This document shows, piece after piece, positions 17,083-46,740 of a stretch of 64,000 nt of DNA (within the stretch, counting starts at the first letter, position 1; each line of letters opens with the position of its first letter). Location: NCBI GenBank assembly GCA_029560415.1, contig JAKQKY010000057.1:1-64000 (forward strand), given 5' to 3'. The translations under genes and the position numbers were made by a program. The DNA is from Bacteroidota bacterium. Lineage in GTDB: Bacteria > Bacteroidota > Bacteroidia > Chitinophagales > Chitinophagaceae. Below the pieces are notes generated by a model. The model saw only the letters and a program-made list of their open reading frames with translations. It did no database searches and was not told the origin of the DNA.

Positions 17083-19023
17083 ATGAAAACTCGTATCAGC
17101 TTCTTATTTCTTATTTCTTATTTCTCATTTCTTGTTCCGCTACAAGCGCAGCCTGATCGCTGGCAGCAATCGGTAAAGTATACTATGCTGATTGATGTGG
17201 ATACGGTTAGCAACCGGTTTACAGGTAAACAAAAACTTGTGTATACCAATAACTCTCCCGATAAACTGGATAAAATTTTTTACCATTTATACTGGAATGC
17301 TTTTCAGCCAAACAGCAGCATGGATGTACGCAGTCGTGAACTGGGAAAGATACAAACCAACGGCCGGCCCGATTGGGATGGCAGGGTTCGTGACAGGATC
17401 AGCAAATTAAAGGAAAATGAGATCGGTTATCAAAAGATCATTTCCCTGAAACTAAATGGTGTACCTCAACCGTTCAGCTATCATGAAACCATCCTGGAAG
17501 TGAATCTCACTAAACCGATTTTACCCAAGACCACCGTGCAACTTGATATGGAATTCGAAGCACAGGTGCCGCTGCAGGTTCGCAGGAGTGGGAGAGATAA
17601 TCCACAAACGGGTGTAAAATATAGTATGAGCCAATGGTATCCCAAGCTTTGTGAATACGATTATGAAGGCTGGCACCCAACACCATATGTGGCCCGGGAA
17701 TTCTATGGAGTATGGGGTGATTTTGATGTGACCATCCAGATCGACAAAACATATAAACTCGGCGGAACAGGTGTGTTGGTGAATGCCAATGAAATAGGAT
17801 GGGGGTACGATAAACCCGGAACAGAACTGAAACCAACGTCGGCCAATAAACGCAGCTGGCATTTTAAAGCAGGTAATGTGCACGATTTTGTTTGGGCTGC
17901 CGATCCCGATTACCGTCATATTGTTCGTAAAATGCCTGTTACCGGCACTATGCTGCATGTTTTATACAACTATAAACCAAATGATGCAAAGAATGATTCG
18001 GCCTGGGAGAAAGTGGCCAATGCTGCTGTAACAGTTTTGCCGTTCATTGAAAAGAATTTTGGTAAATATCCTTACCCTCAATATTCGTTTATACATGGGG
18101 GTGATGGTGGTATGGAATACCCAATGGCCACCCTCATCAGCGGGCCCTCCCTTGGAACCGTTATTCATGAATGGATGCATAGCTGGTACCAGATGATGCT
18201 GGGCACCAATGAAAGCATGTATGCGTGGATGGATGAAGGATTTACCAGCTTTGCTGAAGACCTGGTGTCTAAATTTTACAATAAACGGTCGGGCCTGGAA
18301 GATTACCGTGACGCCCTGGCCAAAACACCCGACAATGAAAACCTGAAACAACTGATCGCATCTTTGCCTGAAGATCACGCTGGTGCCTATGCCAGTTATT
18401 TTGCATTGGCTAAGAGTGGACTGGAAGAGCCCATGACCACGCATGCCGATCATTACAACAACAATTTTGCTTATAGCATCGATGCTTATTCAAAAGGTGA
18501 AGTGTTCATGGAACAGCTGGGATATATTGCGGGAGCTTCTGTAAGAGACAAGATACTATTAGAATATTACAGGCTCTGGCGTTTTAAACACCCAAATGCC
18601 AATGATTTTATTCGGGTAGCCGAAAACGTGAGTGGTATCAAACTAGACTGGTACAAAGAGTATTGGATCAATACCACCAAAACCATCAACTATTCAATCG
18701 ATAGTTTATGGGAAGAAAATGGAGTTTCAAAGATCAGGCTAAAACGTATCGGGCAGATGCCAATGCCCATAGACCTGCAACTTACCTTCAAAGATGGTAC
18801 CACGGAGATGCATTACATCCCATTGAACCTGATGTTTGGCAATAAAGCAAATGAAAATCCTGCTGCTAAATTCATCACGCATGAAGAATGGCGCTGGACA
18901 CATCCAACTTATATTGTAGAATCTACGCGGAAACTGGGGGAGCTTAAAATGGCAGAGATCGATCCATCGAAGCGAATGGCTGACACAGAAAGAAAGAATA
19001 ATTTATTGGAACTGAACTGGTAG
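17083..19023 (+). CDS. M1 family metallopeptidase
   Basis: Signal peptide; zinc motif as HEWMHSWYQMMLG...DEGFTSFAED; N-terminal M1-like beta domain. Confidence 0.88.
   Translation: MKTRISFLFLISYFSFLVPLQAQPDRWQQSVKYTMLIDVDTVSNRFTGKQKLVYTNNSPDKLDKIFYHLYWNAFQPNSSMDVRSRELGKIQTNGRPDWDGRVRDRISKLKENEIGYQKIISLKLNGVPQPFSYHETILEVNLTKPILPKTTVQLDMEFEAQVPLQVRRSGRDNPQTGVKYSMSQWYPKLCEYDYEGWHPTPYVAREFYGVWGDFDVTIQIDKTYKLGGTGVLVNANEIGWGYDKPGTELKPTSANKRSWHFKAGNVHDFVWAADPDYRHIVRKMPVTGTMLHVLYNYKPNDAKNDSAWEKVANAAVTVLPFIEKNFGKYPYPQYSFIHGGDGGMEYPMATLISGPSLGTVIHEWMHSWYQMMLGTNESMYAWMDEGFTSFAEDLVSKFYNKRSGLEDYRDALAKTPDNENLKQLIASLPEDHAGAYASYFALAKSGLEEPMTTHADHYNNNFAYSIDAYSKGEVFMEQLGYIAGASVRDKILLEYYRLWRFKHPNANDFIRVAENVSGIKLDWYKEYWINTTKTINYSIDSLWEENGVSKIRLKRIGQMPMPIDLQLTFKDGTTEMHYIPLNLMFGNKANENPAAKFITHEEWRWTHPTYIVESTRKLGELKMAEIDPSKRMADTERKNNLLELNW
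17100..17134 (+). repeat. Heptamer array TTTCTTA inside the M1 peptidase signal-peptide coding region
   Basis: CTTCTTA TTTCTTA TTTCTTA TTTCTCA TTTCTTG, register 7 nt. Confidence 0.85.
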
Positions 19024-19038
19024 TTTTAACGGTAACGG

Positions 19039-19674
19039 TTACCTGCCAAAAAATTTATTAACAGCTTCTACCCGGTTCGATACGTGCAGTTTGTTGTAAA
19101 TATTATAAACATGTTTTCTTACGGTTTCGGAACTGATGAAGAGATCTTCTGCGATCTCTTTATACACGAGACCTTTCGAAAGCATCTCCAGTATTTCAAA
19201 TTCCCGTTTCGATAAAACATCCAGGGCTTCATCGGCAGCAGGTGTGGTAGGTTTGTTTACAAAAGCAGAAACCACTTTGCGGGCGATCTGGCTGCTCATC
19301 GGCGCCCCGCCTTCATATAGTTCCTTGATGGATTCGAGCAGTTTTGCCGGCGCTGTTTTTTTGGTGATATATCCACTGGCTCCGGCACTCAGTGCTTCGA
19401 AGATCTTTTCATCTTCCTCGTAGATCGTACACATCATGAACAGCATTTCGGGGCAGGTAGGTTTGAGGTCTTTTACTACTTCAATGCCATTGATGCCACC
19501 GAGGTGAATGTCCACCAATACTACCATCGGTTTAAATATGGGCAGTTTAACGAGGGCATCTTCTCCATTTACACAGGAACAACATAGGCTGTAGCCTTCC
19601 GACATTTCAATGATCTGTTCCAGCGCCTGCCGGATATCATTGTTATCTTCTACAATGGCTACAGTAATGTTCAT
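19039..19674 (-). CDS. NarL/LuxR-family response regulator
   Basis: Receiver domain VAIVEDNNDIR...VLVDIHLGG; C-terminal LuxR HTH LSKREFEILEMLSKGLVYKEIAEDLFISSETVRKHVYNIYNKL. Confidence 0.93.
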   Translation of the reverse strand: MNITVAIVEDNNDIRQALEQIIEMSEGYSLCCSCVNGEDALVKLPIFKPMVVLVDIHLGGINGIEVVKDLKPTCPEMLFMMCTIYEEDEKIFEALSAGASGYITKKTAPAKLLESIKELYEGGAPMSSQIARKVVSAFVNKPTTPAADEALDVLSKREFEILEMLSKGLVYKEIAEDLFISSETVRKHVYNIYNKLHVSNRVEAVNKFFGR

Positions 19675-19731
19675 GTATGCAAAGCTTGTTTAATTATTTT
19701 ATTAATGCAATACCCTAAACTGGTATATCGA

Positions 19732-20367
19732 TCATTTCTTTATCGGTTGATACAATAAGTATTTATCCTTAAAATGAGGTTCAGGAAAAAAGTGTTCCAC
19801 CTCCCAGATAAATGGCTTACAGCCACTTTCCGAGATCTCATTACCCAGGTCACCTCCTTTTAAACAAACCAATCCACGTGGAACGCCTTCAGTATGTGCA
19901 ATTGGTTTCTTTAATAGGGGCTTGCTCCAATGCCAGAGATCCTTCATTGGCGCAACAGCACGTGAAACCACGGTATCGAATTGCCTGTTTTTTATTTCCT
20001 CGGCCCTGCAGTGTTGGGTTGTAACATTGGTAAGTCCGATCTCGGCTGCTATTTCCTTTACAACAGTTAATTTTTTATTGATACTATCCACCAGGTGAAA
20101 GGATGTTTCGGGAAAAAAGATGGCCAGTGGAATGCCGGGAAAGCCTCCACCACTGCCAAGGTCCATCACCTGCATATTTTTTTCAAAGTTGAATTGGGCG
20201 GCAATGACCAGTGAATGCAAAACATGGTGTGTATAAAAATTATCCATGTCTTTTCGGCTGATCACATTGATCTTCTCATTCCAGGAAGTATACAGTGGTT
20301 TAAGCGCTTCAAATTGCTTCAATTGCTGTTCGGTGAATTCGCTGAAATATTTTAATAGTATATCCAT
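19732..20367 (-). CDS. rsmG: 16S rRNA (guanine(527)-N(7))-methyltransferase RsmG
   Basis: VMDLGSGGGFPGIPLAIFFPE, VVSRAVAPM. Confidence 0.93.
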   Translation of the reverse strand: MDILLKYFSEFTEQQLKQFEALKPLYTSWNEKINVISRKDMDNFYTHHVLHSLVIAAQFNFEKNMQVMDLGSGGGFPGIPLAIFFPETSFHLVDSINKKLTVVKEIAAEIGLTNVTTQHCRAEEIKNRQFDTVVSRAVAPMKDLWHWSKPLLKKPIAHTEGVPRGLVCLKGGDLGNEISESGCKPFIWEVEHFFPEPHFKDKYLLYQPIKK

Positions 20368-20373
20368 GTGAAA

Positions 20374-21507
20374 TTATTTCCAGGTTGGTTTAGGTTTTCT
20401 TACCAGGGATCCGGCAAAAAGGATATAATAAAAGAACATCCAGATGTCAAAAAACAGGAACCAGGGGAGCAGATCTTTTTCGCCCAGTTTAGTCAGCGTC
20501 TTGCCGTACACGATAGCCTGTATGATCAGTCGGCCTCCGAAGATCATGAGGCTGTATTGCCAGTTATAAAAAAGGCAACTGGCTATCAATAACGGGTAAA
20601 ATAAAAAATGAGAGAAGGCATACAGGCCTAAGAAAAATTTGTGTAACGGTTTGTAATAACGCCCCGTACTGTAATGTCTTTTTTTCTGCGACATCCATTG
20701 AGCAAAACTGGTGGCCGGCTCGCTCAGTGTAAAACTTTCTTTATCTATGTTGATCTTTGTATTTCTTTTATTAGCGGCCATGTTAATGAAGAGATCGTCA
20801 TCACCACCCGGTATATTATTGTGTGCCGAAAATCCTTTGTGCCGGAAGAACACCACTTTCTTGTAGCTTAGGTTTCGGCCAACGCCCATGTAGGGTAAAC
20901 CGGCCAGGGCATAACTTAGGTATTGTAATGCTGCATGAAAAGTTTCCCAGCGGATCATCTTATTCAGGAAACTTTTTTTCTTATGATAGGCGCCATATCC
21001 CAACACGATCTCGGTATCATCGGTATAAGCACTTTGCATACTGTCTATCCAATGTTCTGTTGCAGGAACACAATCCGCATCGGTTAACAAGACGATCTCA
21101 TGTTTGGCCGTTTTTATGCCAATGCTCAGGGGGAATTTTTTGCCCGGGATCATCTTGGCTTCCTGCGTAAGTTCAACCACCTGCAATTGCTTGTATTGTT
21201 TCCTGAATTCTTCCAGGATGTATTTGCTTTCGTCGTAGGAGTTATCATTAACCACGATCACTTCATGCGTGGTTTTATATTCCTGTACCAATGCACCGGG
21301 TAAATATTGAGCCAGGTTGCGGGCTTCATCGCGGGCGCAAATGATCACGCTTACAGGATGTGTTTGGGATGTTGATCTTTGTTTTTTCCTGTAAAAGCTC
21401 AGCCTGCTGAAAAAAAACAGGTAATAGAACAGCTGAATGAATGCGATAGAACAAAAAACAATAAACAGGATCAGCTGCCAGTGCTGCAGGATTTTTGGTA
21501 AATTCAT
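20374..21507 (-). CDS. Glycosyltransferase family 2 protein
   Basis: VSVIICARDEARNL, EVIVVNDNSYDES, DADC. Confidence 0.88.
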   Translation of the reverse strand: MNLPKILQHWQLILFIVFCSIAFIQLFYYLFFFSRLSFYRKKQRSTSQTHPVSVIICARDEARNLAQYLPGALVQEYKTTHEVIVVNDNSYDESKYILEEFRKQYKQLQVVELTQEAKMIPGKKFPLSIGIKTAKHEIVLLTDADCVPATEHWIDSMQSAYTDDTEIVLGYGAYHKKKSFLNKMIRWETFHAALQYLSYALAGLPYMGVGRNLSYKKVVFFRHKGFSAHNNIPGGDDDLFINMAANKRNTKINIDKESFTLSEPATSFAQWMSQKKRHYSTGRYYKPLHKFFLGLYAFSHFLFYPLLIASCLFYNWQYSLMIFGGRLIIQAIVYGKTLTKLGEKDLLPWFLFFDIWMFFYYILFAGSLVRKPKPTWK

Positions 21508-21512
21508 CGGCG

Positions 21513-21520
21513 CAAAAATA
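21513..21520 (-). promoter_or_regulatory. -7 box TATTTTTG for glycosyltransferase gene
   Basis: TAnnTTTG on minus strand, only 5 nt from the ATG. Confidence 0.5.
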
Positions 21521-21568
21521 AGCTATACCGCTTTCAAAGAGGCTTTCTGAAAAAGCATTTTTAAAATT

Positions 21569-21576
21569 TATCTTTG
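21569..21576 (+). promoter_or_regulatory. -7 box TATCTTTG for tgt
   Basis: TATCTTTGCG motif 27 nt before ATG 21604. Confidence 0.6.
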
Positions 21577-21603
21577 CGCCCTTTGTAATTCTATATTTCC
21601 AAC

Positions 21604-22743
21604 ATGGCATCTCTTCAATTTAAGATAAATCATACCGATAGCGGCAGTTCTGCCCGGGCAGGGACCATTACAACCGATCATGGCGTCATCAGTACGCCCA
21701 TATTCATGCCGGTAGGTACAGTAGGCAGTGTAAAAGCGGTAACCCAGCAACAATTGGTTGACGAAGTACAGGCACAGATCATCCTGGGCAATACCTATCA
21801 TTTATACCTGCGGCCCGGCCTGGATGTTTTGCAACAGGCTGGTGGCCTTCACAAATTCAATGGCTGGAACCGGCCGATTCTCACCGATAGTGGTGGCTAC
21901 CAGGTTTTTTCCCTGGCCAATAACCGCAAAATCAACGAGGAAGGAGTTGTTTTTCAATCGCATATCGATGGAAGCAAGCACCTCTTCACCCCCGAAAATG
22001 TAATGGATACCCAGCGCATCATTGGCGGAGATATCATCATGGCCTTTGATGAATGCCCGCCCGGTGGCAGTGAATACGCTTATGCCAAAACATCCATGGA
22101 GCTTACTCATCGCTGGCTGGATAGATGTGTAAAACGTTTTGCCGATACGCCTGACAGGTACGGGTACACGCAAAACCTGTTTCCTATAGTACAAGGCGGC
22201 ATCCACCACGATCTGCGGATAGCATCCTGCGATTTTATTGCTTCTAAAAATGCTACGGGCAATGCCATCGGTGGGTTAAGTGTTGGTGAACCGATCGAGA
22301 AAATGTACGAGATCTGTGCGCTTTGTTGTGAGCATCTTCCAAAGGATAAACCCCGTTACCTGATGGGCGTAGGTACTCCATGGAATATCCTCGAAGCCAT
22401 TGGTATGGGAGTAGATATGTTTGATTGCGTAATGCCTACCCGCAACGGGCGCAATGCCATGCTGTTTACTTCAAATGGCATCATCAACATCGATAACAAA
22501 AAATGGGAGACCGACTTTTCCCCGATCGACGATGGCATTGATTGTGCCATGAGCGGGTTTTATAGTAAAGCTTATGTTCGGCACCTGATGAAAGCGAAGG
22601 AATATCTTGGGCTCACCATTGCCAGTGTACACAACCTTGCATTTTATTTATGGCTGGTTAAACAGGCGAGAGAACATATTATTGCTGGCGATTTCCCTGG
22701 CTGGAAAAATGAGATGGTTATTCGCCTCCAGCAGCGACTATAA
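21604..22743 (+). CDS. tgt: tRNA-guanine transglycosylase (queuine tRNA-ribosyltransferase)
   Basis: TPIFMPVGTVGSVKAVT, LTDSGGYQVFSLA, MAFDECPPG, YLMGVGTPWNILEAI. Confidence 0.96.
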   Translation: MASLQFKINHTDSGSSARAGTITTDHGVISTPIFMPVGTVGSVKAVTQQQLVDEVQAQIILGNTYHLYLRPGLDVLQQAGGLHKFNGWNRPILTDSGGYQVFSLANNRKINEEGVVFQSHIDGSKHLFTPENVMDTQRIIGGDIIMAFDECPPGGSEYAYAKTSMELTHRWLDRCVKRFADTPDRYGYTQNLFPIVQGGIHHDLRIASCDFIASKNATGNAIGGLSVGEPIEKMYEICALCCEHLPKDKPRYLMGVGTPWNILEAIGMGVDMFDCVMPTRNGRNAMLFTSNGIINIDNKKWETDFSPIDDGIDCAMSGFYSKAYVRHLMKAKEYLGLTIASVHNLAFYLWLVKQAREHIIAGDFPGWKNEMVIRLQQRL

Positions 22744-22819
22744 GGAATGCTATTTTTAAGCATTAAGGGCATAATGTTTGCAATTGTTTTTATCTTTATC
22801 GGGCTTATAAAAAAATCAT

Positions 22820-23598: not shown

Positions 23599-24282
23599 TT
23601 ACTGGATAACTGCTGTTTTAAGCAGGGTTTGGGTGTTAATATCAACGCCAATGGTTGAAATGGCGATTTTGTAATCAGCCTGGATCAACCCTACTTTACG
23701 GGCATAATAGCTTTTAATATCGGTTACGATGGTGTTGGCCGGAAGTCCGCCACCGGCAACAATATCCGTTTTTATACCGATCACATCGGTATAAGATGTT
23801 CCATTCACGGTTTTAGAACTACCTTTTTCGATAACACTATTGGTCACCGTAATGGGGATGGCTACCGGGAATCCGGGAACCGTTAAATTAATGGTTTGTG
23901 ACCAGGAGGCGCCGGTTGACTGGTTATCTTTCAGGTAAAGGTCTTCAATTGACAGGGGTGTGCCATTCAGGTCCTGTTTCTGGTAACGGTAGTATTCGTT
24001 GCCGGTAATATTATAATAATCTGAGGCATTGGCGTTTGAATGCTTGAAAATGCGGTATGTACGGGAACCGATGCTGGTATCCTGGCTGGTGACGGTAACA
24101 GTGTCTACAAGGGAAGTTTGGCCGGGGGTTCCGGGGTTGTTGATCACGTCGTAGGTCCATTTGCTGTTGGTGGTAATGGACATGTATTTTTCTTCGGGCA
24201 CTACCGGGTTACTGTCGCCGTCTTTTTTACAGGAAATGACCAGTAAGGCAAGGGGTAAACAGGCAAAAATGAGTTTTTTCAT
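23599..24282 (-). CDS. Hypothetical lipoprotein
   Basis: Lipobox LLVISC at N-terminus. Confidence 0.65.
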   Translation of the reverse strand: MKKLIFACLPLALLVISCKKDGDSNPVVPEEKYMSITTNSKWTYDVINNPGTPGQTSLVDTVTVTSQDTSIGSRTYRIFKHSNANASDYYNITGNEYYRYQKQDLNGTPLSIEDLYLKDNQSTGASWSQTINLTVPGFPVAIPITVTNSVIEKGSSKTVNGTSYTDVIGIKTDIVAGGGLPANTIVTDIKSYYARKVGLIQADYKIAISTIGVDINTQTLLKTAVIQ

Positions 24283-24318
24283 ATATTTCTTTAGTTTAAT
24301 TGTGTAATATCTGTATTT

Positions 24319-24352
24319 TTTGGTAATAATTAAATTTTTCCTCTTATCTTTG
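24319..24352 (+). promoter_or_regulatory. Promoter for infA/ribosomal cluster
   Basis: TTTG (24319-24322), 22-nt spacer, TATCTTTG (24345-24352). Confidence 0.6.
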
Positions 24353-24365
24353 CGCTCCCAAATTT

Positions 24366-24584
24366 ATGGCTAAACAGGCACTTATTAAGCAGGACGGAAC
24401 AATAGTTGAAGCACTCAGTAATGCTATGTTCAAGGTGAAGTTAGAGAATGGTCATGAAATATTGGCCACGATTTCGGGTAAAATGAGGATGCATTACATC
24501 CGTATTTTGCCAGGCGATAAAGTGGGGGTGGAAATGAGCCCTTATGACCTTACGAGGGGCAGGATCATTTTCCGTTATAAGTAA
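24366..24584 (+). CDS. infA: Translation initiation factor IF-1
   Basis: 72 aa; [61 protein letters not shown]. Confidence 0.97.
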
Positions 24585-24644
24585 AATAATACAAGCTATG
24601 GCTGTAAAGTTGTAGCCATTGGCAAACAGATAAAAACAAGCAAC

Positions 24645-24761
24645 ATGAAGGTTAGAGCTTCCATTAAAAAACGCAGTGCAGATTGCAAGATCGTAAGAAG
24701 AAAAGGCCGCCTGTACGTGATCAACAAAAAAAATCCACGCTTTAAGCAAAAGCAGGGGTAA
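24645..24761 (+). CDS. rpmJ: 50S ribosomal protein L36 (below ORF-track length cutoff)
   Basis: Translated by eye: [38 protein letters not shown]. Confidence 0.95.
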
Positions 24762-24766
24762 TCAGG

Positions 24767-24797
24767 ATTAACCATTAATAATTAAAAATTAATAATT
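24767..24797 (+). repeat. Heptamer array ATTAATA upstream of rpsM
   Basis: ATTAACC ATTAATA ATTAAAA ATTAATA ATT. Confidence 0.7.
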
Positions 24798-24800
24798 TCT

Positions 24801-25181
24801 ATGGCTCGTATTGCCGGTATAGATTTACCAAAGAATAAAAGAGGCGAAATTGGTCTTACCTACATTTATGGTATTGGCCGTTCCACTGCCCAGTATATTT
24901 TAACGAAAGCAGGTATCGACCTGAATAAGAAAGTTAACCAGTGGAATGATGATGAGCAGACTGCCATCCGTAATATCATCAATGGCGAGTTTAAAACGGA
25001 AGGTGCACTTCGCAGTGAAACTCAGATGAACATCAAGCGTTTGCTTGATATCGCCTGTTACCGTGGATTGCGTCATCGTAAAGGTTTGCCGGTTCGTGGT
25101 CAGCGTACCCGTACCAACAGCCGTACCCGCAAAGGGAAACGTAAAACGGTTGCCGGTAAGAAAAAAGTGGCTAAGAAATAA
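24801..25181 (+). CDS. rpsM: 30S ribosomal protein S13
   Basis: [30 protein letters not shown]. Confidence 0.98.
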
Positions 25182-25337
25182 TGATAATAAAGATGCCGGT
25201 TACCTAGTACCCGGTATCTCTATATATAATGGCTTGTATTTTCTGAACCAACGCCGGATCGCATAAGCCAGCAGGAGGGTGGGTTCAGTTCCGGGAAACC
25301 GGGATCATTTTTTCAGATTACCTATTTTAAGAACATT

Positions 25338-25754
25338 ATGGCAAAAGCACAAGGTGCTAACAAAGCACAAAGCGCAAAAGCAGCAGCAAAGAAGCGTGTG
25401 GTAAAAGTAGACAGCCACGGCGATGCACACATCACTGCAAGTTTCAACAACATCATCATCAGTTTAACCAACAAGAACGGCCAGGTTATTTCATGGTCTT
25501 CTGCCGGTAAAATGGGATTCAAAGGAAGTAAGAAAAATACTCCTTATGCAGCCCAGATGGCAGGCGCCGATGCAGCGAAAGTTGCCCTGGATGCTGGTCT
25601 TAAAAGGGTAGATGTATATGTAAAAGGTCCGGGAAGTGGTCGTGAAGGCGCTATCCGCTCCCTGTCACAAAATGGCCTTGAAGTTGCCATGATCAAAGAC
25701 GTTACCCCTTTGCCGCACAATGGTTGCAGGCCTCCTAAAAAGAGAAGGGTTTAA
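25338..25754 (+). CDS. rpsK: 30S ribosomal protein S11
   Basis: [43 protein letters not shown]. Confidence 0.98.
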
Positions 25755-25770
25755 TCATTCAATCAACGTT

Positions 25771-25790
25771 CAACCGGCCTTTGCCGGTTG
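25771..25790 (+). other. Hairpin in rpsK-rpsD spacer, no U-tract
   Basis: CAACCGGC-CTTT-GCCGGTTG, 8-bp perfect stem followed by GGCGCTA. Confidence 0.7.
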
Positions 25791-25874
25791 GCGCTATTTA
25801 ATAACCGGGTGTATCATTCATTTTAAAAGGTCTTTATAATGATCCACCGTCACTAAAAGACCAACATACATTTT

Positions 25875-26480
25875 ATGGCACGTTATACAGGCCCCAAAAC
25901 AAAAATCTCCCGCAGGTTCGGCGAACCGATCACTGGCAACGGAAAGTGGTTAACCAAAAACAGCAACCCTCCAGGTCAGCACGGTGCTAACAAAAAACGT
26001 AAAACACTTAGTGAATACGGTGTTCAGTTAAAAGAAAAGCAAAAAGCAAAATATACCTATGGTTTGCTTGAAAAGCAATTCCGTAAAACTTTTGATGAAG
26101 CTGCCCGTAGAAAAGGCGTTACAGGTGAAAACCTGATCAAATTACTGGAAGCCCGTTTAGACAATACAGTTTTCCGCATGGGTATTTCTCCAAGCCGCCA
26201 GGGTGCACGCCAGTTGGTAAGTCACAAGCACATCACTGTTAACGGTGAAGTGGTGAACATTCCTTCATACAGCTGTCAGCCAGGTGATGTGATCAGCCTG
26301 AAAAATAAAAGCGCAGTTAACACGTCTATCACCGGCAACCTTCGTGGTAAGAATGCAAAATTCAACTGGATCGAATGGAGTGAAGGTGATATGAAAGGTA
26401 CTTTCATCGCGTATCCTGAAAGGGAAAGCGTTCCTGAGAATATCAAAGAGCAGCTGATCGTGGAATTGTACAGTAAGTAA
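25875..26480 (+). CDS. rpsD: 30S ribosomal protein S4
   Basis: [20 protein letters not shown]4 domain [31 protein letters not shown]. Confidence 0.98.
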
Positions 26481-26481
26481 G

Positions 26482-26509
26482 AAGTTAAAAGTCTAAACCT
26501 AAAAGTTAA
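26482..26509 (+). repeat. Heptamer array AAGTTAA in rpsD-rpoA spacer
   Basis: AAGTTAA AAGTCTA AACCTAA AAGTTAA. Confidence 0.65.
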
Positions 26510-26584
26510 GGTTGATGACTTTTTCCTGTTGAATTTGCTCAGCGTTGGCAACAAACATTTAAAAATTAAAACAACAAAATACAA

Positions 26585-27580
26585 ATGGCCATTTTCAATT
26601 TTGTTAAACCCGATAAGATTGTTCTTCAGAAAGCAAACGATTTTGAAGCACAGTTTGAATTCCGTCCGCTTGAACCCGGATATGGTGTAACCATTGGTAA
26701 TGCTTTGCGCAGGGTATTGCTTAACTCTTTAGAGGGTTATGCTATTATCGGTATCAACATTGCCGGAGCCGATCACGAGTTTGCAACATTAAAAGGTGTT
26801 ACAGAAGACGTAACCGAAATCATCCTTAACCTGAAGCAGGTAAGGTTTAAAATGAAAGTAGACCATGAGGTAAACACAGAAAAGGTTACCCTTTCTATCA
26901 AAAATAAAACAGAATTCACTGCGGGCATGATTGGCGAAGCTTCTCCTGCTTTTGAAGTGATGAATCCTGAATTGTTGATCTGCACCATGGATAGCAGTGC
27001 TAAACTGGACATTGAGATCAGCATTGGTAAAGGACGTGGCTACGTACCAGCTGAAGAGCATAAAGAAAAAAGTTCTCATTTCGGATATATCGCGGTGGAT
27101 GCAATTTATACACCCATCAAGAATGTAAAATACCTGATTGAAAATACCAGGGTTGAACAACGCACTGATTTTGAAAAACTGATCATGGATGTGGTTACCG
27201 ATGGTACCATTCACCCGGAAGAAGCCGTTAAACAGGCCAGCCGTATTCTGATCCAGCACCTGATGATCATCACTGATGAAAACATCACGTTCGATACCAA
27301 AGAAGATAAGAAAGAAGACCTGGTTGACGAACAAACTTTACAGCTTCGCAAAATGCTGAAAACGCCATTGGAAGATCTCGATCTTTCTGTACGTGCCTTC
27401 AACTGCCTGAAAGCTGCCAAGATCAATTCTTTAAGCGAACTGGTACAATACGAACAGGAAGACCTGATGAAATTCAGGAACTTCGGTCAGAAATCATTAA
27501 GCGAGATCGACCAGGTATTGCACGAGAGAGGTTTGAGCTTTGGAATGGATTTGAGCAAATTGAAACTGGACGACGAGTAA
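26585..27580 (+). CDS. rpoA: DNA-directed RNA polymerase subunit alpha
   Basis: PLEPGYGVTIGNALRRVLLNSLEGYA; C-terminal alpha-CTD. Confidence 0.98.
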   Translation: MAIFNFVKPDKIVLQKANDFEAQFEFRPLEPGYGVTIGNALRRVLLNSLEGYAIIGINIAGADHEFATLKGVTEDVTEIILNLKQVRFKMKVDHEVNTEKVTLSIKNKTEFTAGMIGEASPAFEVMNPELLICTMDSSAKLDIEISIGKGRGYVPAEEHKEKSSHFGYIAVDAIYTPIKNVKYLIENTRVEQRTDFEKLIMDVVTDGTIHPEEAVKQASRILIQHLMIITDENITFDTKEDKKEDLVDEQTLQLRKMLKTPLEDLDLSVRAFNCLKAAKINSLSELVQYEQEDLMKFRNFGQKSLSEIDQVLHERGLSFGMDLSKLKLDDE

Positions 27581-27748
27581 TTTGAAGATTGACCAATTTG
27601 AAGATTTGGTAATTGATCAATTTGAAAATTAGGCGATTTGAAGATTAACAAGTTTGGAAGTGCTACACATTTTCAAATTTTCAAATCAAATCATCATCAA
27701 ATCAAATCATCTTCAAATTTTCAAATCGACTCATCATCAAATCAATTT
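27581..27748. repeat. Octamer array with inverted arms (TTTGAAGA left, ATCTTCAA right) in rpoA-rplQ spacer
   Basis: TTTGR words start at 27581, 27597, 27605, 27621, 27637, 27653 (all on one 8-nt lattice); right-arm units beginning AT at 27669 and every 8 nt to 27741 on the same lattice. Confidence 0.9.
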
Positions 27749-27806
27749 TATTATACATCAATCCTGTAATTCCTGACACGGTACAGGGTTTTAAAAACAA
27801 GTCAAC

Positions 27807-28310
27807 ATGAATCACGGTAACAAAAAGAACAATTTAAGCAGAACCGCATCGCACCGCAAGGCATTGCTGATGAACCTCGGCTGCCAGTTGATCACGTACA
27901 AGCGTATCACTACTACATTGGCTAAGGCTAAAGCATTGCGCACTTACATCGAGCCACTGATCACCAAAACCAAGCATACCGATACCAAAGAGGTTATCAT
28001 GCACAATCACCGTATCGTATTCAGCTACCTGAACGATAAGGCTGCCGTTAAAGAATTGTTTACGGTTGTTGCACCAAAAGTTGCCGGAAGGCCTGGTGGA
28101 TATACCCGTATCATTAAACTGGGTGCCAGGGTTGGTGATAATGCAGAAATAGCAATGATCGAACTGGTTGATTTCAACGAAATTTATGGCAAATCAGTTG
28201 CTACTGCTGCTGAACCAGCTAAGAAAACACGTCGTGCCGGTGGTAAGAAGAAAGCTACTGATACAGCTGCTGAAACAGACACTGTTACAGAAGAAACACC
28301 AGAAGCATAA
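27807..28310 (+). CDS. rplQ: 50S ribosomal protein L17 with low-complexity C-terminal extension
   Basis: [41 protein letters not shown]. Confidence 0.97.
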
Positions 28311-28334
28311 TTTGAAAAAGTGAAACGTATATAT

Positions 28335-28364
28335 AGCCCCGGTATTTTACCGGGGCTTTTTTTG
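28335..28364 (+). terminator. Rho-independent terminator after rplQ
   Basis: AGCCCCGGTA-TTT-TACCGGGGCT-TTTTTT. Confidence 0.92.
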
Positions 28365-28421
28365 AATTAATTTTTTGAAAACCTGCATCATTTCTTTTCT
28401 TTGCAAAACAGAAATCATACC

Positions 28422-29522
28422 ATGGGAAACAGTGAATCAAATACAGCAGTCTTAATCCTCGCAGATGGCACCATCGTTTACGGTCGGGCTTTTGGAAAAA
28501 AGGGTATTGCAACCGGCGAAATATGTTTTAACACAGGGATGACGGGGTACCAGGAAGTGTTTACCGATCCGAGTTATTATGGCCAGGTGCTGATCATGAA
28601 CAATGTGCACATTGGCAATTACGGGGTAAACCTGGCAGATGTGGAAAGTGATGGAGTAAAAGTGAAGGCTGTTATCGGTAGAAACCTCGAAGAAAAATTC
28701 AGCCGCTTTGCTGCCACAGGTTCTTTACAGGAATATTTTGAAGCACAGTCGGTAGTAGCAATTGATGGCGTTGATACACGTGCGTTGGTTGCTCATGTTC
28801 GAACCAAAGGAGCCATGAACTGTATTGTTTCTTCTACCGAAATGGACCTTGCAGTGCTCAAACAGCAATTGGCCGATGTGCCATCCATGGATGGATTGGA
28901 GTTAGCCTCTACCGTTAGTACCCGGGAAACCTATGAACTGGGCGATCCGGTGAGCAGCTTACGGGTAGCTGTACTCGATTTTGGAGTGAAGAAGCATATT
29001 CTTCAATGCCTGGTTGAAAGGGGGGCTTATGTAAAAGTGCATCCGGCTAAAACATCTTTCGAAGAACTGCAGAAATTCAGTCCCCTGGGATATTTCATCA
29101 GCAACGGTCCGGGTGATCCTGCACCCATGGGATATGCGATCGATACCGTGAAAAAGATACTTGCTTCCAACAAACCATTGTTCGGAATTTGTTTGGGCCA
29201 CCAGCTACTGGCGCTTGCAAATGATATACCTACCTTTAAAATGCACCATGGTCACCGCGGACTTAATCACCCCGTTAAAAACCTTGTTACCGGCCGTTCG
29301 GAGATCACAACACAGAACCATGGATTTGGTGTAGACCCGGCAGCAGTAAGGGCAAATGATAATATTGAGATCACACACATAAACCTGAACGACGACAGCA
29401 TTGAAGGCATCAGGGTAAAAAACAAGAAAGCTTTTTCGGTACAGTATCACCCGGAAGCCACGCCAGGACCACACGACAGCAGGTACCTGTTTGATGAGTT
29501 TGTAGCCTTAATGAATAACTAA
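28422..29522 (+). CDS. carA: Carbamoyl-phosphate synthase small subunit
   Basis: FNTGMTGYQEVFTDPSYYGQ; GICLGHQLLALA; HPEATPGPHD. Confidence 0.96.
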   Translation: MGNSESNTAVLILADGTIVYGRAFGKKGIATGEICFNTGMTGYQEVFTDPSYYGQVLIMNNVHIGNYGVNLADVESDGVKVKAVIGRNLEEKFSRFAATGSLQEYFEAQSVVAIDGVDTRALVAHVRTKGAMNCIVSSTEMDLAVLKQQLADVPSMDGLELASTVSTRETYELGDPVSSLRVAVLDFGVKKHILQCLVERGAYVKVHPAKTSFEELQKFSPLGYFISNGPGDPAPMGYAIDTVKKILASNKPLFGICLGHQLLALANDIPTFKMHHGHRGLNHPVKNLVTGRSEITTQNHGFGVDPAAVRANDNIEITHINLNDDSIEGIRVKNKKAFSVQYHPEATPGPHDSRYLFDEFVALMNN

Positions 29523-29530
29523 TCTACGCT

Positions 29531-29607
29531 CATTGAAAATTTTGTATTGAACATTGTGCATTGAATATTCAAGAATAATTTTCAATAATCAACAATCAAT
29601 TTTCAAT
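29531..29607. repeat. Heptamer array with inverted arms (YATTGAA / TTCAATR) in carA-aroQ spacer
   Basis: CATTGAA AATTTTG TATTGAA CATTGTG CATTGAA TATTCAA GAATAAT TTTCAAT AATCAAC AATCAAT TTTCAAT; outer 11-nt perfect inverted repeat 29531-29541/29598-29608. Confidence 0.9.
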
Positions 29608-29629
29608 GTTAATCTTATAATTTACTTCC

Positions 29630-30043
29630 ATGAACATTGCCATCATTAACGGTCCTAACCTGAACCTGCTTGGAAAAAGAGAAGTGGATATTTATGGTAC
29701 TGAATCATTCGATGTGTTCCTGGAAAAGTTGAAAGAAAAATTTCCGGCAGTTAACTTTTCCTTTTTTCAAAGCAATGTGGAAGGTGAATTGATCAACGAA
29801 CTCCAAAGAGTCGGGTTCAGTTACGAAGGCATCATCTTTAACCCCGGCGGGTACACGCATACGTCAGTAGCCATTGGAGATGCTGTGGCAGCCATCACAA
29901 CCCCGGTTGTAGAAGTACATATTTCCAACATCATGGGCAGGGAGGAGTTTCGCAAACTCTCGCATGTTTCCGGCAAAGCGGTTGGTGTGATCAGCGGATT
30001 GGGTTTAAAGGGGTATGAGCTGGCGGTCACCTATTTTTTATAA
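29630..30043 (+). CDS. aroQ: Type II 3-dehydroquinate dehydratase
   Basis: NGPNLNLLGKREVDIYG; FNPGGYTHTSVAI; EVHISN. Confidence 0.96.
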   Translation: MNIAIINGPNLNLLGKREVDIYGTESFDVFLEKLKEKFPAVNFSFFQSNVEGELINELQRVGFSYEGIIFNPGGYTHTSVAIGDAVAAITTPVVEVHISNIMGREEFRKLSHVSGKAVGVISGLGLKGYELAVTYFL

Positions 30044-30073
30044 TCAATATCACAAATAGTCTTCTCTTAAAGT

Positions 30074-32395
30074 TTAATGGGTGACCGTAAGGTTAAAGCC
30101 TCCTGTAACAGTCAACGTTGCTCCGGGTGAAATAGTCAATGTTCGAATGGTCGTATTTGAATTAAGTTGAACCGTGCCGGAATTGATGAGTACATCTGTA
30201 TTAGGATCGGGTACCTGGTTACAACTCCAGTTAGCTGGATTTTCCCAAAGATTGTTTATTGCGCCAGTCCATTTATTTACTATGCGGATCATGTGTGCTG
30301 ATCCTGTGAGCACATTGGTATTATTCTGAATGATACAGCGATACTTATAATTTGCGTACGATGATGGAATAGCCTGGATGGATAGCGTGTAAGAAGTAGC
30401 GCCCGAATAGATGCTGTTGTTTGACAAATTGGTATATCCTGCGCCTGTATTCAATTGCCACTGGTATGTATTTCCTGCGTTATTATTATCAGCATTAAAC
30501 GAAATGTTGGCATTGGCACAGATGGAATCGTTTGCTGTTGGGTTTCGCCTGAACGCCATCACACTGATTTTTGAGCCATTATTATTATCCGGAAAAGCGA
30601 TCATCGGGATATTGTTTTTATCTATCGCCAAAGAATTTATCTGGAAGACTTGTGTTGGCACAAATCCTCTTTTTCCTTTGTATTTCCAGTTCCCGTTCTC
30701 AAAATTCATTACAGTTCCGGATCGCTTGTATGAGTCATCCCTAAATGCCAGCACGGGTATATTCGCTGTATCAAAGGCAAGTGAAGTTGCAAATGAATGA
30801 CTATTGGTAAATCTTGGACTGCCAACATTAACCCAGGATCCAGCTACAAATTTAAAAACACTTATTCGCTCAAACCCATTATCATCCTGCATGCCTATAT
30901 AAGGTACGCCGGTTTTATCAATTGCAATGTCCGGGTAAAAGATTCCATTAAATCCTGTACTGATAAATTCCTGTCCAACTATTACCCAATTGCTGCCATC
31001 AAATTTTACAACGCTGGACATGTCAGATGAGCTGCCATTGTCATTTAAATTTGAATAATGAACATAAGGCGTATTGGTTAATTTATCAACTGCTATACTG
31101 ACTCCTCCATAATTTGTTTGACCAAAATTAGGGCTGCCCAACAAAGACCAGGCAGTGCCGTTAAATTTATAAACTGATATGAATTCACCAAAATTCGTAC
31201 TGGTTTCAAATGTATCCCTGGATGCGACGTAAATATTATTTGCTGCATCTTTGTCAATAGGAATACTTTCATATACGGATGTGCTTCCCAACCACGCAGC
31301 AAAGCCGGCTGTGCCCAACGTAACCCAACTGCTTCCATTAAATCTACGCACAGTTATGCGACCACCATTTGCTGAATCAACATAGGCAATAACGGGGTTA
31401 TTGGCATTGTCCATGATGATATTGGATTTACTGCATGAGCCTTCGGATGCAGCGTTACCAACGTCCTGCCAGGTATCCAGGTCGAGATCGTATTTTTTTA
31501 CTTTTGCTGCCCGGGTTATTCTATCTACATACACTACATAGGGAATATTATTTGAGCCACAGGCCAAATTCGTATAGTCTGCCTGGTTGGCTGAAAAACC
31601 TGCTCCGCCCAGGTAGTTCCATTGTGTATCGATCACAGGAGGGACAGGGATATAGGTAAAACCATCCAGTGAATCTGAGACAGCATCGGAAGCAGTCATT
31701 TTTAATTTTCCACTTGCTCCATAACTCACCCAGGCTTTCATAACGGTGTCGGATAATCGTGTTATAGAATCTGCAGGAACATTTCCAAATTTTACCGGCG
31801 AATAATTATATGTATTGACTATGTTGAAATTCCATCCTTTTATCGTGATCTCCGTTAATCCGGTTCCGGTTGTTGGGGTAAAAGAAGTTATCCTGGGTCC
31901 TTTTAAGGTCCATTTTTCATAGATCTGCCTGTCATAACCTGCCTGGCTTGTGGATCCGACAGCATATCCATAGTGCATGTAAAAGGTATGGGTAAGCGGA
32001 TCATACTTATTTGCGAAATTACTATGTGAGTATAGGCCCAGACCGGGCGGCGAGCTTTCAGGAAGAAATGTGAAGTTCCCTGGATTATCCAGTGTCATAA
32101 AACCACTGGCAGGTGTTTGGGGGGTATTTAATACAGGCGTCCAGTTAATTAAATCATTTGAGCTGTTAATTTCAAACTGAACTGTATAAATCGTCGTGGT
32201 CATAAAGTCCCCTACATTAATTTCATACCGGTTGGGCCCAACCTGGGTGAGGGTTTTAGTTAAATCAAGGTCTCTGGAAACGGTAGGATGAAAAAAATGG
32301 CCGTTTACATAATAGGTCCCCGAATAATTTGCCTGTGCATTGGAAAATAATGTAATTGATAAGAATAATACTAATGGAAATATACACTTTTTCAT
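30074..32395 (-). CDS. Secreted protein with IPT/TIG-like and beta-propeller-like regions
   Basis: Signal peptide; RITSFTPTTGTGLTEITIKGWNF (IPT/TIG-like); repeated Asp/Trp-rich propeller-like segments. Confidence 0.65.
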   Translation of the reverse strand: MKKCIFPLVLFLSITLFSNAQANYSGTYYVNGHFFHPTVSRDLDLTKTLTQVGPNRYEINVGDFMTTTIYTVQFEINSSNDLINWTPVLNTPQTPASGFMTLDNPGNFTFLPESSPPGLGLYSHSNFANKYDPLTHTFYMHYGYAVGSTSQAGYDRQIYEKWTLKGPRITSFTPTTGTGLTEITIKGWNFNIVNTYNYSPVKFGNVPADSITRLSDTVMKAWVSYGASGKLKMTASDAVSDSLDGFTYIPVPPVIDTQWNYLGGAGFSANQADYTNLACGSNNIPYVVYVDRITRAAKVKKYDLDLDTWQDVGNAASEGSCSKSNIIMDNANNPVIAYVDSANGGRITVRRFNGSSWVTLGTAGFAAWLGSTSVYESIPIDKDAANNIYVASRDTFETSTNFGEFISVYKFNGTAWSLLGSPNFGQTNYGGVSIAVDKLTNTPYVHYSNLNDNGSSSDMSSVVKFDGSNWVIVGQEFISTGFNGIFYPDIAIDKTGVPYIGMQDDNGFERISVFKFVAGSWVNVGSPRFTNSHSFATSLAFDTANIPVLAFRDDSYKRSGTVMNFENGNWKYKGKRGFVPTQVFQINSLAIDKNNIPMIAFPDNNNGSKISVMAFRRNPTANDSICANANISFNADNNNAGNTYQWQLNTGAGYTNLSNNSIYSGATSYTLSIQAIPSSYANYKYRCIIQNNTNVLTGSAHMIRIVNKWTGAINNLWENPANWSCNQVPDPNTDVLINSGTVQLNSNTTIRTLTISPGATLTVTGGFNLTVTH

Positions 32396-40915: not shown

Positions 40916-40924
40916 TCACTTACA

Positions 40925-43132: not shown

Positions 43133-43134
43133 AG

Positions 43135-43818
43135 ATGAGAAAATTTTATTTCCTATTAGTGATGACTGCCTGTTCATTGTCGGTTGAAGCGCAGTATAAA
43201 AAAGCCAGCTTTTTAACGAGGGGTGGCAGAACGTACGACCTGGGTTTCTCTGGTCATTTCATCAGCGATGGCAAAAGCAATGTGCCAGGTATTTATTACA
43301 GTTATGGAAGTGATAAGGGCAAGCGGTTTTTTCAATGGAACGACCTGGAACTTTTATTGCCAACCAAGTTTGAGTATCAAACCCGCGATGTTAATCTTTT
43401 GACACCAGTAACCGTTACCGGTAAGTCGAAACTGGGACTAGCCTTTCGATACAATGTAGGGTTTTACCTCCTTAACCCAAAGAATGAGAAGAATAAACTA
43501 AAACCTTTTCTGACGATTGGGCTGAATGTATTGGCGCTTGGCGGTTCTGCAAAGCCTGTTTCAGTGGAGTATAATCCTGATTTAACAAATGGGGTAGAAA
43601 AGTATCCTGGAGAAACCACCTTTAGTTTTGGTGGCAATGTTGGTGCAGGTGCTATATTTACGTTATCAGACAAATTTGGAATTAAGTTAGCCGGCGGTTA
43701 TAACCTGCAATCGCAGGTAGAGCCATCAAAATACGATGACTCATACGATTCATTCAATGTATATGGCAGTCATCCATATGTAAACCTTGGTGTAAGGTTT
43801 ACCATGATGGGCAACTAA
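43135..43818 (+). CDS. Putative outer membrane beta-barrel protein
   Basis: Signal peptide; alternating beta pattern, ends YVNLGVRFTMMGN. Confidence 0.6.
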   Translation: MRKFYFLLVMTACSLSVEAQYKKASFLTRGGRTYDLGFSGHFISDGKSNVPGIYYSYGSDKGKRFFQWNDLELLLPTKFEYQTRDVNLLTPVTVTGKSKLGLAFRYNVGFYLLNPKNEKNKLKPFLTIGLNVLALGGSAKPVSVEYNPDLTNGVEKYPGETTFSFGGNVGAGAIFTLSDKFGIKLAGGYNLQSQVEPSKYDDSYDSFNVYGSHPYVNLGVRFTMMGN

Positions 43819-43841
43819 TAATTATTGTTTGCTATTATATA

Positions 43842-43869
43842 AAAAGGTCCCTGTTAACAGGGACCTTTT
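43842..43869. terminator. Bidirectional terminator
   Basis: AAAAGGTCCCTGTTAACAGGGACCTTTT perfect palindrome. Confidence 0.9.
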
Positions 43870-43898
43870 ATTTTGCGTTTACTCGTTTATGTGAGCGG

Positions 43899-46172
43899 TT
43901 ATTTTCTATTGGCAAATTCCTTCCTGATGATATTCAACGCAGCTCCCGCTTTAAACCATTCGATCTGTTGCAGGTTGTAGGTATGATTCACCTGGATATG
44001 GTCTGAAGTTCCATCTGCATGATGCAGTACCAGGGCCAGTTTTTTATTTGGTTTAAAATCGGTGAGTCCTACAATATCGATCACATCATCTTCCAAAAAC
44101 TTATCATAATCTGCTTTGTCATCAAAGGTCAACGCCAGCATCCCTTGTTTCTTAAGGTTGGTTTCGTGAATGCGTGCAAATGATTTTACCAAAACGGCTC
44201 TAACACCAAGGTGACGTGGTTCCATAGCCGCATGTTCACGTGAAGAGCCTTCTCCGTAATTTTCATCTCCAACTACCAACGAGCCAATGCCTGCAGCTTT
44301 GTAGGAGCGTTGGGTGGCGGGTACGGGTCCGTACTGGCCAGTGAGTTGATTCTTTACAAAATCTGTTTTTTCATTGAAATAATTCACCGCACCAATCAGC
44401 ATGTTGTTGCTGATGTTATCGAGGTGACCACGGAATTTCAACCATGGACCGGCCATTGAAATATGATCGGTGGTACATTTCCCTTTGGCTTTGATTAAAA
44501 GTCTTAACCCTTTCAAGTCGATGCCTTCCCAGGCCGGGAATGGTTCGAGTATCTGTAGACGTTTGCTTTCCGGTGAAACCAATACCTGCACCTGGCTTCC
44601 ATCTTCTGCCGGGGCCTGGTATCCGGGATCATCTACTGCAAAACCCCGTGGAGGCAATTCGAAGCCTGTTGGAGGATCTAGTTTTACTTTTTCACCTTTA
44701 TCATTCGTAAGCGTATCAGTCAGCGGATTAAAGTTCAACGTTCCGGCAATGGCCATCGCGGTTACGATCTCGGGTGAACCCACAAACGCAAAAGTGTTGG
44801 GGTTGCCATCAGCCCGTTTTGCGAAGTTTCGGTTGAAGCTATGTACGATGGTATTTCTTTCGGCTTTTTCAGCGCCAACTCTTGCCCACATACCAATACA
44901 AGGTCCGCATGCATTGGCGAAAACAGTTGCTCCTATCTTATCAAAAGTATCCAGGAAGCCATCTCTTTCGATGGTAAAACGAACCTGTTCAGATCCTGGC
45001 GTGATGGTAAATTCTGCATTTAATTTCAATCCTTTTTCCCTTACCTGTTCTGCCAGGCTAACTGCACGGCTGATATCTTCATAAGAAGAATTGGTGCAGC
45101 TTCCGATCAATCCTACTTCAATTTTGGTCGGCCAGTTATTTGCTGCAGCAGCTTCTTTCATTTTCGAGATCGGCGTAGCAAGATCTGGCGTGAAAGGTCC
45201 ATTCAGGTGTGGTTCCAGTTCGCTTAAATTGATCTCGATCACCTGGTCGAAATAAGCAGAAGGATTTGCATATACTTCATCATCACCGGTCAGGTGTTCT
45301 TTAATGCTATCTGCGAGTTCAGCAATTTCTTCCCTGCCGGTGGCTTTGAGGTAACGGCTCATGCTGTCGTCGTACCCGAAGGTTGAAGTGGTAGCACCGA
45401 TCTCGGCACCCATATTACAAATAGTGCCTTTACCGGTACAACTCATGTTGATAGCGCCTTCGCCAAAATATTCAACAACTGCACCTGTTCCACCTTTTAC
45501 GGTAAGAATGCCGGCAACTTTTAAGATCACATCTTTTGGGGCTGCCCAGCCACTAAGCTTTCCTGTTAGTTTCACCCCGATGAGTTTGGGCATTTTCAAT
45601 TCCCATGGCAATCCTGCCATAACATCACAGGCATCAGCACCGCCAACACCAATGGCGATCATGCCGAGTCCGCCTGCATTTACCGTATGGCTATCCGTTC
45701 CGATCATCATACCGCCGGGGAATGCATAATTTTCCAATACTACCTGGTGAATGATACCGGCACCCGGCTTCCAGAAGCCGATGCCATATTTATTGGATAC
45801 TGATGCCAGGAAATCGTACACTTCGCTGCTTTCATTTACGGCCCGGCTAAGATCAGTTTTGCTGTTTACTTTGGCTTCGATCAGGTGATCACAATGTACG
45901 GTACTGGGTACGGCAACTGCTGTACGGCCAGACTGCATGAATTGTAATAGGGCCATCTGGGCCGTGGCATCCTGCATGGCTACACGGTCTGGCGCAAAAT
46001 CTACATAAGAATTACCTCTTTCAAAGGTTTCGGTAGCATTGCCCTGCCATAAATGGGCGTATAATATTTTTTCAGTGAGGGTAAGGGCTTTGCCGGTTGC
46101 TTTACGGGCTGCAGTCACTCTTTCGGGGAAATTTGCATAAACCTTTTTGATCATTTCGATGTCGAATGCCAT
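43899..46172 (-). CDS. Aconitate hydratase (mitochondrial-like)
   Basis: [55 protein letters not shown]. Confidence 0.95.
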
Positions 46173-46282
46173 AGTACTGATTTGGAGATTTGGAAAAAAG
46201 ATAATTTAAACTGTATATGAACCGATTTGTTTTACAGGATACTGCATAACAGCCTGATTTCTTATACAGATAAATGGTTTTG

Positions 46283-46290
46283 CAAAATTA
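46283..46290 (-). promoter_or_regulatory. -7 box TAATTTTG candidate for aconitase
   Basis: TAnnTTTG on minus strand about 110 nt upstream of ATG. Confidence 0.35.
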
Positions 46291-46370
46291 CTGAAATGAA
46301 GGAAGGATTTGTAGAAAAAAAAGGACTAATTTTAATATTAGATTCCATTAACGCTTAATATTTTTACATC

Positions 46371-46592
46371 ATGAATCGATTCAAGCACTTTGTGGAATGG
46401 CATGTTTTCGGCGTTTGTTCTGCCATTGGGGAGAAAGTTGGCATCGCTTCGGCCACGATCCGCAAATACTTCATTTATATTTCCTTTCTCACCATGGGTT
46501 CGCCCCTGATCATTTACCTGTTCGTTGCTTTTTGGATGAATGTAAAAAAATACATCGTCAATGCCCGGAGAAATCCGTTGAGGTATTGGTGA
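46371..46592 (+). CDS. Small PspC-domain-like membrane protein
   Basis: FGVCSAIGEKVGIASATIRKYFIYISFLTMGSPLIIYLFVAFWM resembles PspC motif. Confidence 0.65.
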   Translation: MNRFKHFVEWHVFGVCSAIGEKVGIASATIRKYFIYISFLTMGSPLIIYLFVAFWMNVKKYIVNARRNPLRYW

Positions 46593-46594
46593 GG

Positions 46595-46664
46595 CTGGAT
46601 GCTGGATACTGGATGCTGGATACGAGATACAGGATGCTAGATACTGGATACTAGATACTGGATA
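46595..46664 (+). repeat. Tandem heptamer array, consensus CTGGATR, 10 units
   Basis: CTGGATG CTGGATA CTGGATG CTGGATA CGAGATA CAGGATG CTAGATA CTGGATA CTAGATA CTGGATA. Confidence 0.95.
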
Positions 46665-46705
46665 ATTTAAATTTGTTAGTTTATTCTTTCATTGCGGCAT
46701 CTACC

Positions 46706-46740
46706 TTTCTTATTGCTTATTTCTCATTTCTTATTCCTTA
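46706..46740. repeat. Heptamer array TTTCTTA abutting and including the kdsA stop codon
   Basis: TTTCTTA TTGCTTA TTTCTCA TTTCTTA TTCCTTA; the last TTA is the complement of the kdsA TAA stop. Confidence 0.85.

Follow-up and report, generated by a model that had tools for sequence, protein, structure and literature searches.

Heptanucleotide Tandem Repeats of Several Word Families in the Intergenic Spacers of a Ferruginibacter-like Chitinophagaceae Genome

Results and Discussion

A stretch of 64,000 nucleotides (the window) from a metagenome-assembled bacterial genome was analyzed for short tandem arrays located mostly in the spacers between its genes. These arrays represent a real and known kind of repeat with new words. 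With a probability of roughly two in three, they belong to the intergenic simple-sequence tandem repeats of prokaryotes, mostly heptanucleotides, which would be multiplied and lost by whole units and whose words would also have spread between spacers. The host of the window is a Ferruginibacter-like member of the Chitinophagaceae, the relatives found through RpoA being Ferruginibacter and other Chitinophagaceae, with identities of up to 98%. Its assembly comprises 4.485 Mb in 515 contigs with 7.3% contamination, and the window lies inside a contig of 109,676 bases.

Periodicity of the Arrays

Arrays in the window were detected using Tandem Repeats Finder (TRF) with a minimum score of 30, and each locus was compared with 500 dinucleotide shuffles of the same stretch, P = 0.002 being the lowest value that this test can give. 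Six of the seven arrays proposed in an earlier sequence-only reading of the window were recovered by TRF and exceeded their shuffles, contrary to the expectation that repeat finders of the consensus type would miss the class. The seventh, an AAGTTAA array proposed at 26482–26512 (+ strand), yielded no TRF row and is unsupported, since its periodicity stayed at chance level (P = 0.21 for lag 7/8 and 0.50 for any lag). A strict register of 7 or 8 nt had likewise been proposed; the unit is 7 nt in most arrays and 8/16 nt in the array next to rpoA.

The period-7 excess in spacers is genome-wide. Counts beyond the window were obtained by pattern and BLAST searches together with sequence samples; several of them were drawn from contigs picked for containing CTGGATR, genes were called by a simple open reading frame (ORF) rule, and the counts for spacers of relatives treat related species as independent units, which they are not. 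Within a 293 kb sample of the own genome, partly picked for CTGGATR, 32 arrays of period 7 and 12 of period 14 were found, along with zero at periods 4–6 or 8–13 and about zero in shuffles. Contigs picked regardless of arrays gave four arrays at period 7 and one each at periods 9, 14, 21, and 24. Repeated 6-mers in spacers exceeded shuffles at lag 7 by 6.3-fold in the less biased set from the own genome, 8.9-fold in genome G128, and 6.8-fold in 80 relatives, followed in rank by lags 14 and 21; the corresponding values were 1.6–3.1-fold at lags 8 and 9 and 0.6–1.5-fold at lags 4–6. The signal was weaker in G185, a genome of the same genus (2.1-fold at lag 7 and 5.0-fold at lag 14), and amounted to 2–3-fold at lag 7 in small samples from other Bacteroidota families and classes. 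Furthermore, exact doublets in a CTGGATR-enriched sample numbered 777 for units of 7 nt, 256 for 6 nt, 29 for 8 nt, and 6 for 9 nt.

Both checks on periodicity that had been put forward with the original proposal came out in its favor, as dinucleotide-shuffled spacers lose the periodicity and period 7 exceeds other periods throughout the genome. It is highly improbable that the arrays reflect chance low complexity of AT spacers with no special periodicity, an explanation that the shuffles refute for the entire class. The spacers are AT-rich and the 26482 locus is indeed at chance level; however, shuffles fail to reproduce the arrays, lag 7 is enriched 6–9-fold whereas lags 4–6 are not, and CTGGATR is not an AT-rich word.

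Words Shared among Spacers

Two arrays occupy the spacer between convergent genes at 46593–46737. A CTGGATR array of ten degenerate heptamer units (46595–46664, + strand; TRF period 7, score 84; P = 0.002) begins 2 nt past the TGA stop codon (46590–46592) of a + strand gene, and its RNA is predicted to be unstructured (fold z = −0.2). The TTTCTTA array (46706–46744, − strand; TRF period 7, score 57; P = 0.002–0.008) reads TAAGAAA on the strand of the convergent gene, identified by its Pfam match as encoding 3-deoxy-D-arabino-heptulosonate 7-phosphate (DAHP) synthase, and starts at the TAA stop codon (46738–46740) of this gene; its minus-strand fold gave z = +1.3.

Each locus had been thought to carry a word of its own. 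Instead, CTGGATR, TTTGAWRA, TTGAATA, TTAATTA, and TTTCTTA recur at many loci. The sequence CTGGATRCTGGATR has 174 matches in the own genome (reversed control, 0), and the 16-mer TTTGAWRATTTGAWRA, representing the word family of the rpoA array, has 78 (reversed control, 2). The CTGGATR array of the window matches 50 other places in about 40 spacers, the flanks being unrelated and the matches stopping at the array boundaries. Doubled CTGGATR was detected in 42 out of 149 genomes of the family, as compared with one match for the reversed control, and three genomes of the genus contain 174, 38, and 11 matches, respectively. Since dozens of spacers hold arrays of the same word, local growth appears to be complemented by ectopic recombination or some other copying process, which would spread words as well as composite blocks among spacers.

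A composite of this kind, in which a fixed core, TTCGAAGACTC, links several heptamer words, was copied into several spacers of the own genome only. The sequence GATWTCGAAGACTC has ten copies in this genome and is absent from the 58 other genus genomes searched; every copy is flanked by a CTGGATR-type array and an AT-rich heptamer block, and several composites share the order CTGGATR, core, TTAATTA, TTGAATA, and TTCCTTG/TTTCTTA. The recurrence of blocks in similar order indicates that they were copied between spacers, and the presence of the composite in several spacers implies that dispersal is needed besides local amplification. In one convergent spacer (L123, 12050–13100), three tandem composite copies follow each other at a distance of about 293 nt, with at least four heptamer blocks. 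Repeats of a 9-nt type (ACACGGATGACACGGAT) and a AACCACAAGGGGCACAA phrase were also observed in this spacer.

These results could also be read as the traces of a dispersed element, namely a non-autonomous mobile element made up of CTGGATR arrays and the composite with the TTCGAAGACTC core, which inserted in 3′ spacers and whose arrays varied later. The confinement of the GATWTCGAAGACTC copies to one genome, the block order common to several of them, and the spacer with three tandem copies are consistent with this explanation. However, the core is missing at most CTGGATR loci, 46595 included, and the CTGGATR word is found across the family without it. Several composites span from stop codon to stop codon instead of interrupting a spacer, and inspection of copies by eye showed neither terminal inverted repeats nor target duplications. 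A mobile element is considered rather unlikely. As for the proposal that the arrays form a class defined by process, the periodicity withstood the tests designed to refute it and the turnover of spacers described below agrees with it, while private words and local amplification alone had to be abandoned.

Position and Copy Number of the Arrays

In the genus sample, 19 out of 42 CTGGATR arrays begin between −15 and +40 nt from a sense stop codon, while for 9 out of 42 the end coincides with an antisense stop. The stop codon frequently shares the register of the array: summed over all sets, the five-base string that begins with the stop codon reappears at position +7 in 16 gene ends and at position +8 in nine, compared with one to five recurrences at each of the positions +5, +6, and +9 to +12. 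We infer that short words just past stop codons, where the sequence is little constrained, would gain or lose whole units through replication slippage or unequal recombination, and that selection would mostly exclude arrays from genes, save where any hydrophobic sequence may serve, as in a signal peptide.

A difference in copy number was observed between C45 and C208, two contigs of the own genome whose 547-nt alignment is about 97% identical except for a single gap. This 21-nt indel equals three heptamers within a CTGGATR array and thus supports whole-unit slippage or unequal exchange.

Several observations weigh against an origin of the arrays by slippage and spread. Flank searches for second haplotypes at 16 further array loci revealed none, C45 and C208 being the only pair, and the haplotype contigs belong to a metagenome assembly, where misassembly of repeats may occur. 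The spacer counts of the relatives are affected by the relatedness of the species mentioned above. Moreover, one word, CTGGATR, dominates, whereas pure slippage from random seeds predicts many unrelated words; the dominance of CTGGATR and its doubled occurrence in 42 out of 149 genomes of the family suggest that the word was dispersed or is under a constraint.

Contigs C66 and C280 (L119, 12690–12999, and L146, 17344–17595) are 97% identical in the array and the right flank and have unrelated left flanks, the join lying exactly at the CTGGATR array. This could reflect a rearrangement between strains that was mediated by the array, or else a chimeric assembly, and was not used as evidence.

The stop codon itself may have provided the seed. 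The first unit of many arrays holds the stop of the gene in register (TAATTAA, TGAATAT, and GAAATAA), which would lay stops in each of the three frames. Copying between spacers would then distribute words and composites, and palindromic versions would replace ordinary 3′ hairpins. As a full account of the arrays, such growth is regarded as improbable. Arrays shorten the distance to the next stop in some frames by about two to four shuffle standard deviations in the non-independent set of relatives, the effect elsewhere being small or restricted to one frame, and CTGGATR, the dominant word, contains no stop. Backup stops in three frames were rejected as a general function on these grounds. CTGGATR arrays are open in all frames and are traversed by spurious ORFs, which calls for caution in annotation. 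An enrichment between convergent genes was seen in contigs picked for CTGGATR (13 out of 43 convergent vs. 7 out of 178 tandem spacers); it is not claimed here, as the less biased sample gave 2 out of 20 vs. 4 out of 103 and the enrichment was absent in other genomes.

Palindromic Arrays in the rpoA–rplQ and carA–aroQ Spacers

The arrays proposed for the window comprise two types, namely unstructured heptamer arrays (46595, 46706, 17101, and 24774) and palindromic arrays folding as A–U hairpins. The rpoA–rplQ spacer contains a palindromic array at 27581–27745 (+ strand; TRF periods 8/16/24/40; P = 0.002, best lag 16) within a TRF complex spanning 27575–27745. Its 8-nt word, ATTTGAAG/TTTGAWRA, runs forward and is followed by the reverse complement of the word, and the array is predicted to fold as a single long A–U hairpin (z = −4.9; 0 out of 200 shuffles equally good). 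A second palindromic array, YATTGAA/TTCAATR (29531–29607, + strand; TRF periods 14/20/7; P = 0.008 at the best lag of 14 and P = 0.024 for lag 7/8 alone), lies between the genes for the carbamoyl-phosphate synthase small subunit (carA) and type II dehydroquinase (aroQ), as deduced from flanking Pfam matches, and is likewise predicted to form an A–U hairpin (z = −3.0; 2 out of 200 shuffles equally good). The reverse complement following the word explains why both spacers fold much better than shuffles; expansion of a word and its inverse around a small hairpin would give rise to such a long A–U palindrome. Inversion, which had been suggested to accompany the amplification in some cases, is a property of the palindromic arrays, whose unit is mostly 8 nt, rather than of the CTGGATR and TTTCTTA arrays. 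For 48 out of 109 arrays of the relatives, the spacer also contains an exact inverted copy of the unit, compared with 11 for swapped words and 18 for letter-shuffled words.

Comparison of orthologous spacers, another check accompanying the original proposal, showed different words or none in relatives, in agreement with a class that is set apart by process. The rpoA–rplQ spacers of 80 relatives feature other words, ordinary hairpins, or no array. Palindromic 8-nt arrays with other words follow the rpoA stop codon in L070, L105, L107, L043, L065, and L092 and a 7-nt ATACATC array in L059, textbook terminator-like hairpins occupy the slot in L077, L082, and L091, and it is nearly empty in 13 species. 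Fold values of z ≤ −2 were obtained for 32 out of 65 of these spacers and z ≤ −3 for 20 out of 65, whereas none reached z ≥ 2. The palindrome at the 3′ end of rpoA, standing in place of the ordinary hairpins of other species, may therefore serve as a 3′-end or attenuation hairpin. The spacer after the DAHP synthase gene also varies among relatives; a palindrome on a 9-nt word (GGTTCAAAA forward and TTTTGAACN inverted) was noted there, with one copy in L168 and three tandem copies in L169.

Another explanation holds that the arrays are functional 3′ elements kept by selection, acting as transcription-end or RNA-stability hairpins or as Rho-loading sites with a pyrimidine–C every 7 nt. The arrays adjoin stop codons, the rpoA–rplQ slot leans towards stable folds, with terminator-like hairpins alternating with word palindromes, and each of the transcripts converging at 46593–46737 would reach an array that presents UC at 7-nt intervals and is not significantly structured. 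On the other hand, no intrinsic-terminator-like site, i.e., a G+C-rich stem ahead of a run of T, was found in the 27581 or 29531 spacers, whereas a textbook one is located after rplQ at 28335–28357 (AGCCCCGGT-ATTTT-ACCGGGGCT followed by six T). Its siting after rplQ implies that the palindromic array between rpoA and rplQ probably lies within an operon and not at the operon end. The 13 species with almost no sequence in the slot also argue against such a function. No known Rfam RNA was detected in 24000–30200 at E ≤ 0.1. Since CTGGATR occurs in both orientations in same-direction spacers, no strand rule for Rho is apparent, and Rho-loading arrays were rejected on this ground. Functional 3′ elements are considered quite unlikely to account for the arrays.

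Relation to Known Heptamer Repeats

The sequence-only reading had left the novelty of the class to be checked; heptamer repeats are the best-known unexplained intergenic tandem repeats of prokaryotes. They are over-represented in many bacteria (PMC4692102), and a survey of 7006 prokaryotic genomes with SPADE in 2018 described heptamers as the most abundant intergenic tandem repeat, with no clue to their function (PMC6344855). According to Mrazek, Guo and Shah (2007), as cited in PMC4679880, heptamers are the most abundant class of longer simple repeats in most genomes, and slippage was proposed as their origin. Like these heptanucleotide long simple sequence repeats (LSSRs), the arrays described here favor a 7-nt unit over neighboring lengths, are intergenic and scattered over the genome, exceed chance except at 26482, and change by whole units, as seen in one haplotype pair from a metagenome assembly. 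They differ from LSSRs in that a single genome holds several words side by side and that many of the arrays are so degenerate that definitions based on exact repeats would not cover them.

The GGGAATC arrays of Xanthomonas are found close to where the upstream gene ends, comprise 186 arrays with 70 cases of inverted pairs, and are unconserved between species (PMC4692102). The present arrays resemble them in being heptamers, mostly intergenic, near the upstream 3′ end, in part inverted (in relatives), and not conserved at orthologous sites, but inversion is here chiefly a trait of AT-rich arrays with an 8-nt unit and not of most arrays of CTGGATR, the dominant heptamer word. The G-tract/quadruplex word of Xanthomonas was not encountered, with zero GGGAATC or GGGGATT doublets in 466 kb, and CTGGATR has only GG. 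Direct TAACTGA repeats were reported for Beggiatoaceae, Cyanobacteria, and five Bacteroidetes, where most of them immediately precede start codons (PMC4679880), and larger assemblages of heptamer repeats were noted around TAACTGA arrays in Bacteroidetes. The word differs in the present case (zero TAACTGA doublets in 466 kb), and the arrays are often positioned just past stop codons. Cyanobacterial heptamers of the short tandemly repeated repetitive (STRR) type in Calothrix and Nostoc are also tandem, with several words per genome, although words and phylum differ from those of the present arrays. The Nostoc-like GGGGATT, the sole STRR word searched, gave zero doublets in the 466 kb.

What this genome adds are new words, the coexistence of several word families, and a slot in which word palindromes alternate with ordinary hairpins. 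The reason for the preference for 7 nt between bacterial genes is an admitted open question (PMC6344855), and word families at tens of loci, a contig pair differing by whole units, and differing words in relatives should make slippage, ectopic spread, and selection separable by long-read data within one genus.

Further Arrays in the Window and a Candidate rplQ Leader

A TTTCTTA array at 17101–17133 (+ strand; TRF score 59; P = 0.002) is located within a coding sequence and not in a spacer. It lies inside an M1-peptidase-like ORF (17083–19023; Pfam Peptidase_M1), where it codes for the hydrophobic core of the signal peptide (MKTRISFLFLISYFSFLVPLQAQ), and several homologues (L173, L175, L179, and L181) also carry 7-nt pyrimidine repeats in the signal peptide region. 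A short ATTAATA array of the TTAATTA type (24774–24797, + strand; TRF period 7, score 41; P = 0.002) is located directly upstream of rpsM, being the sole array of the window just upstream of a start codon; no RNA structure is predicted for this spacer (z = +0.8).

Shortly upstream of the rplQ start (27807), a further hairpin, ATCCTGTAATTCCTGACACGGTACAGGGT, was observed at 27759–27790. Its bulge and loop (A-W-TCCTGACACGGT) are near-invariant over 78 rpoA–rplQ spacers of the window and relatives. The 7-bp stem covaries among 28 sequences, 99.6% of the cells being paired and 53 cells being changed on both sides, as compared with 14 in shuffles, none of 500 shuffles reaching as high a value. The hairpin occurs as a single copy in the own genome and in genome G035 and has no match in Rfam. 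It is regarded as a candidate leader of ribosomal protein L17, perhaps with an autoregulatory role.

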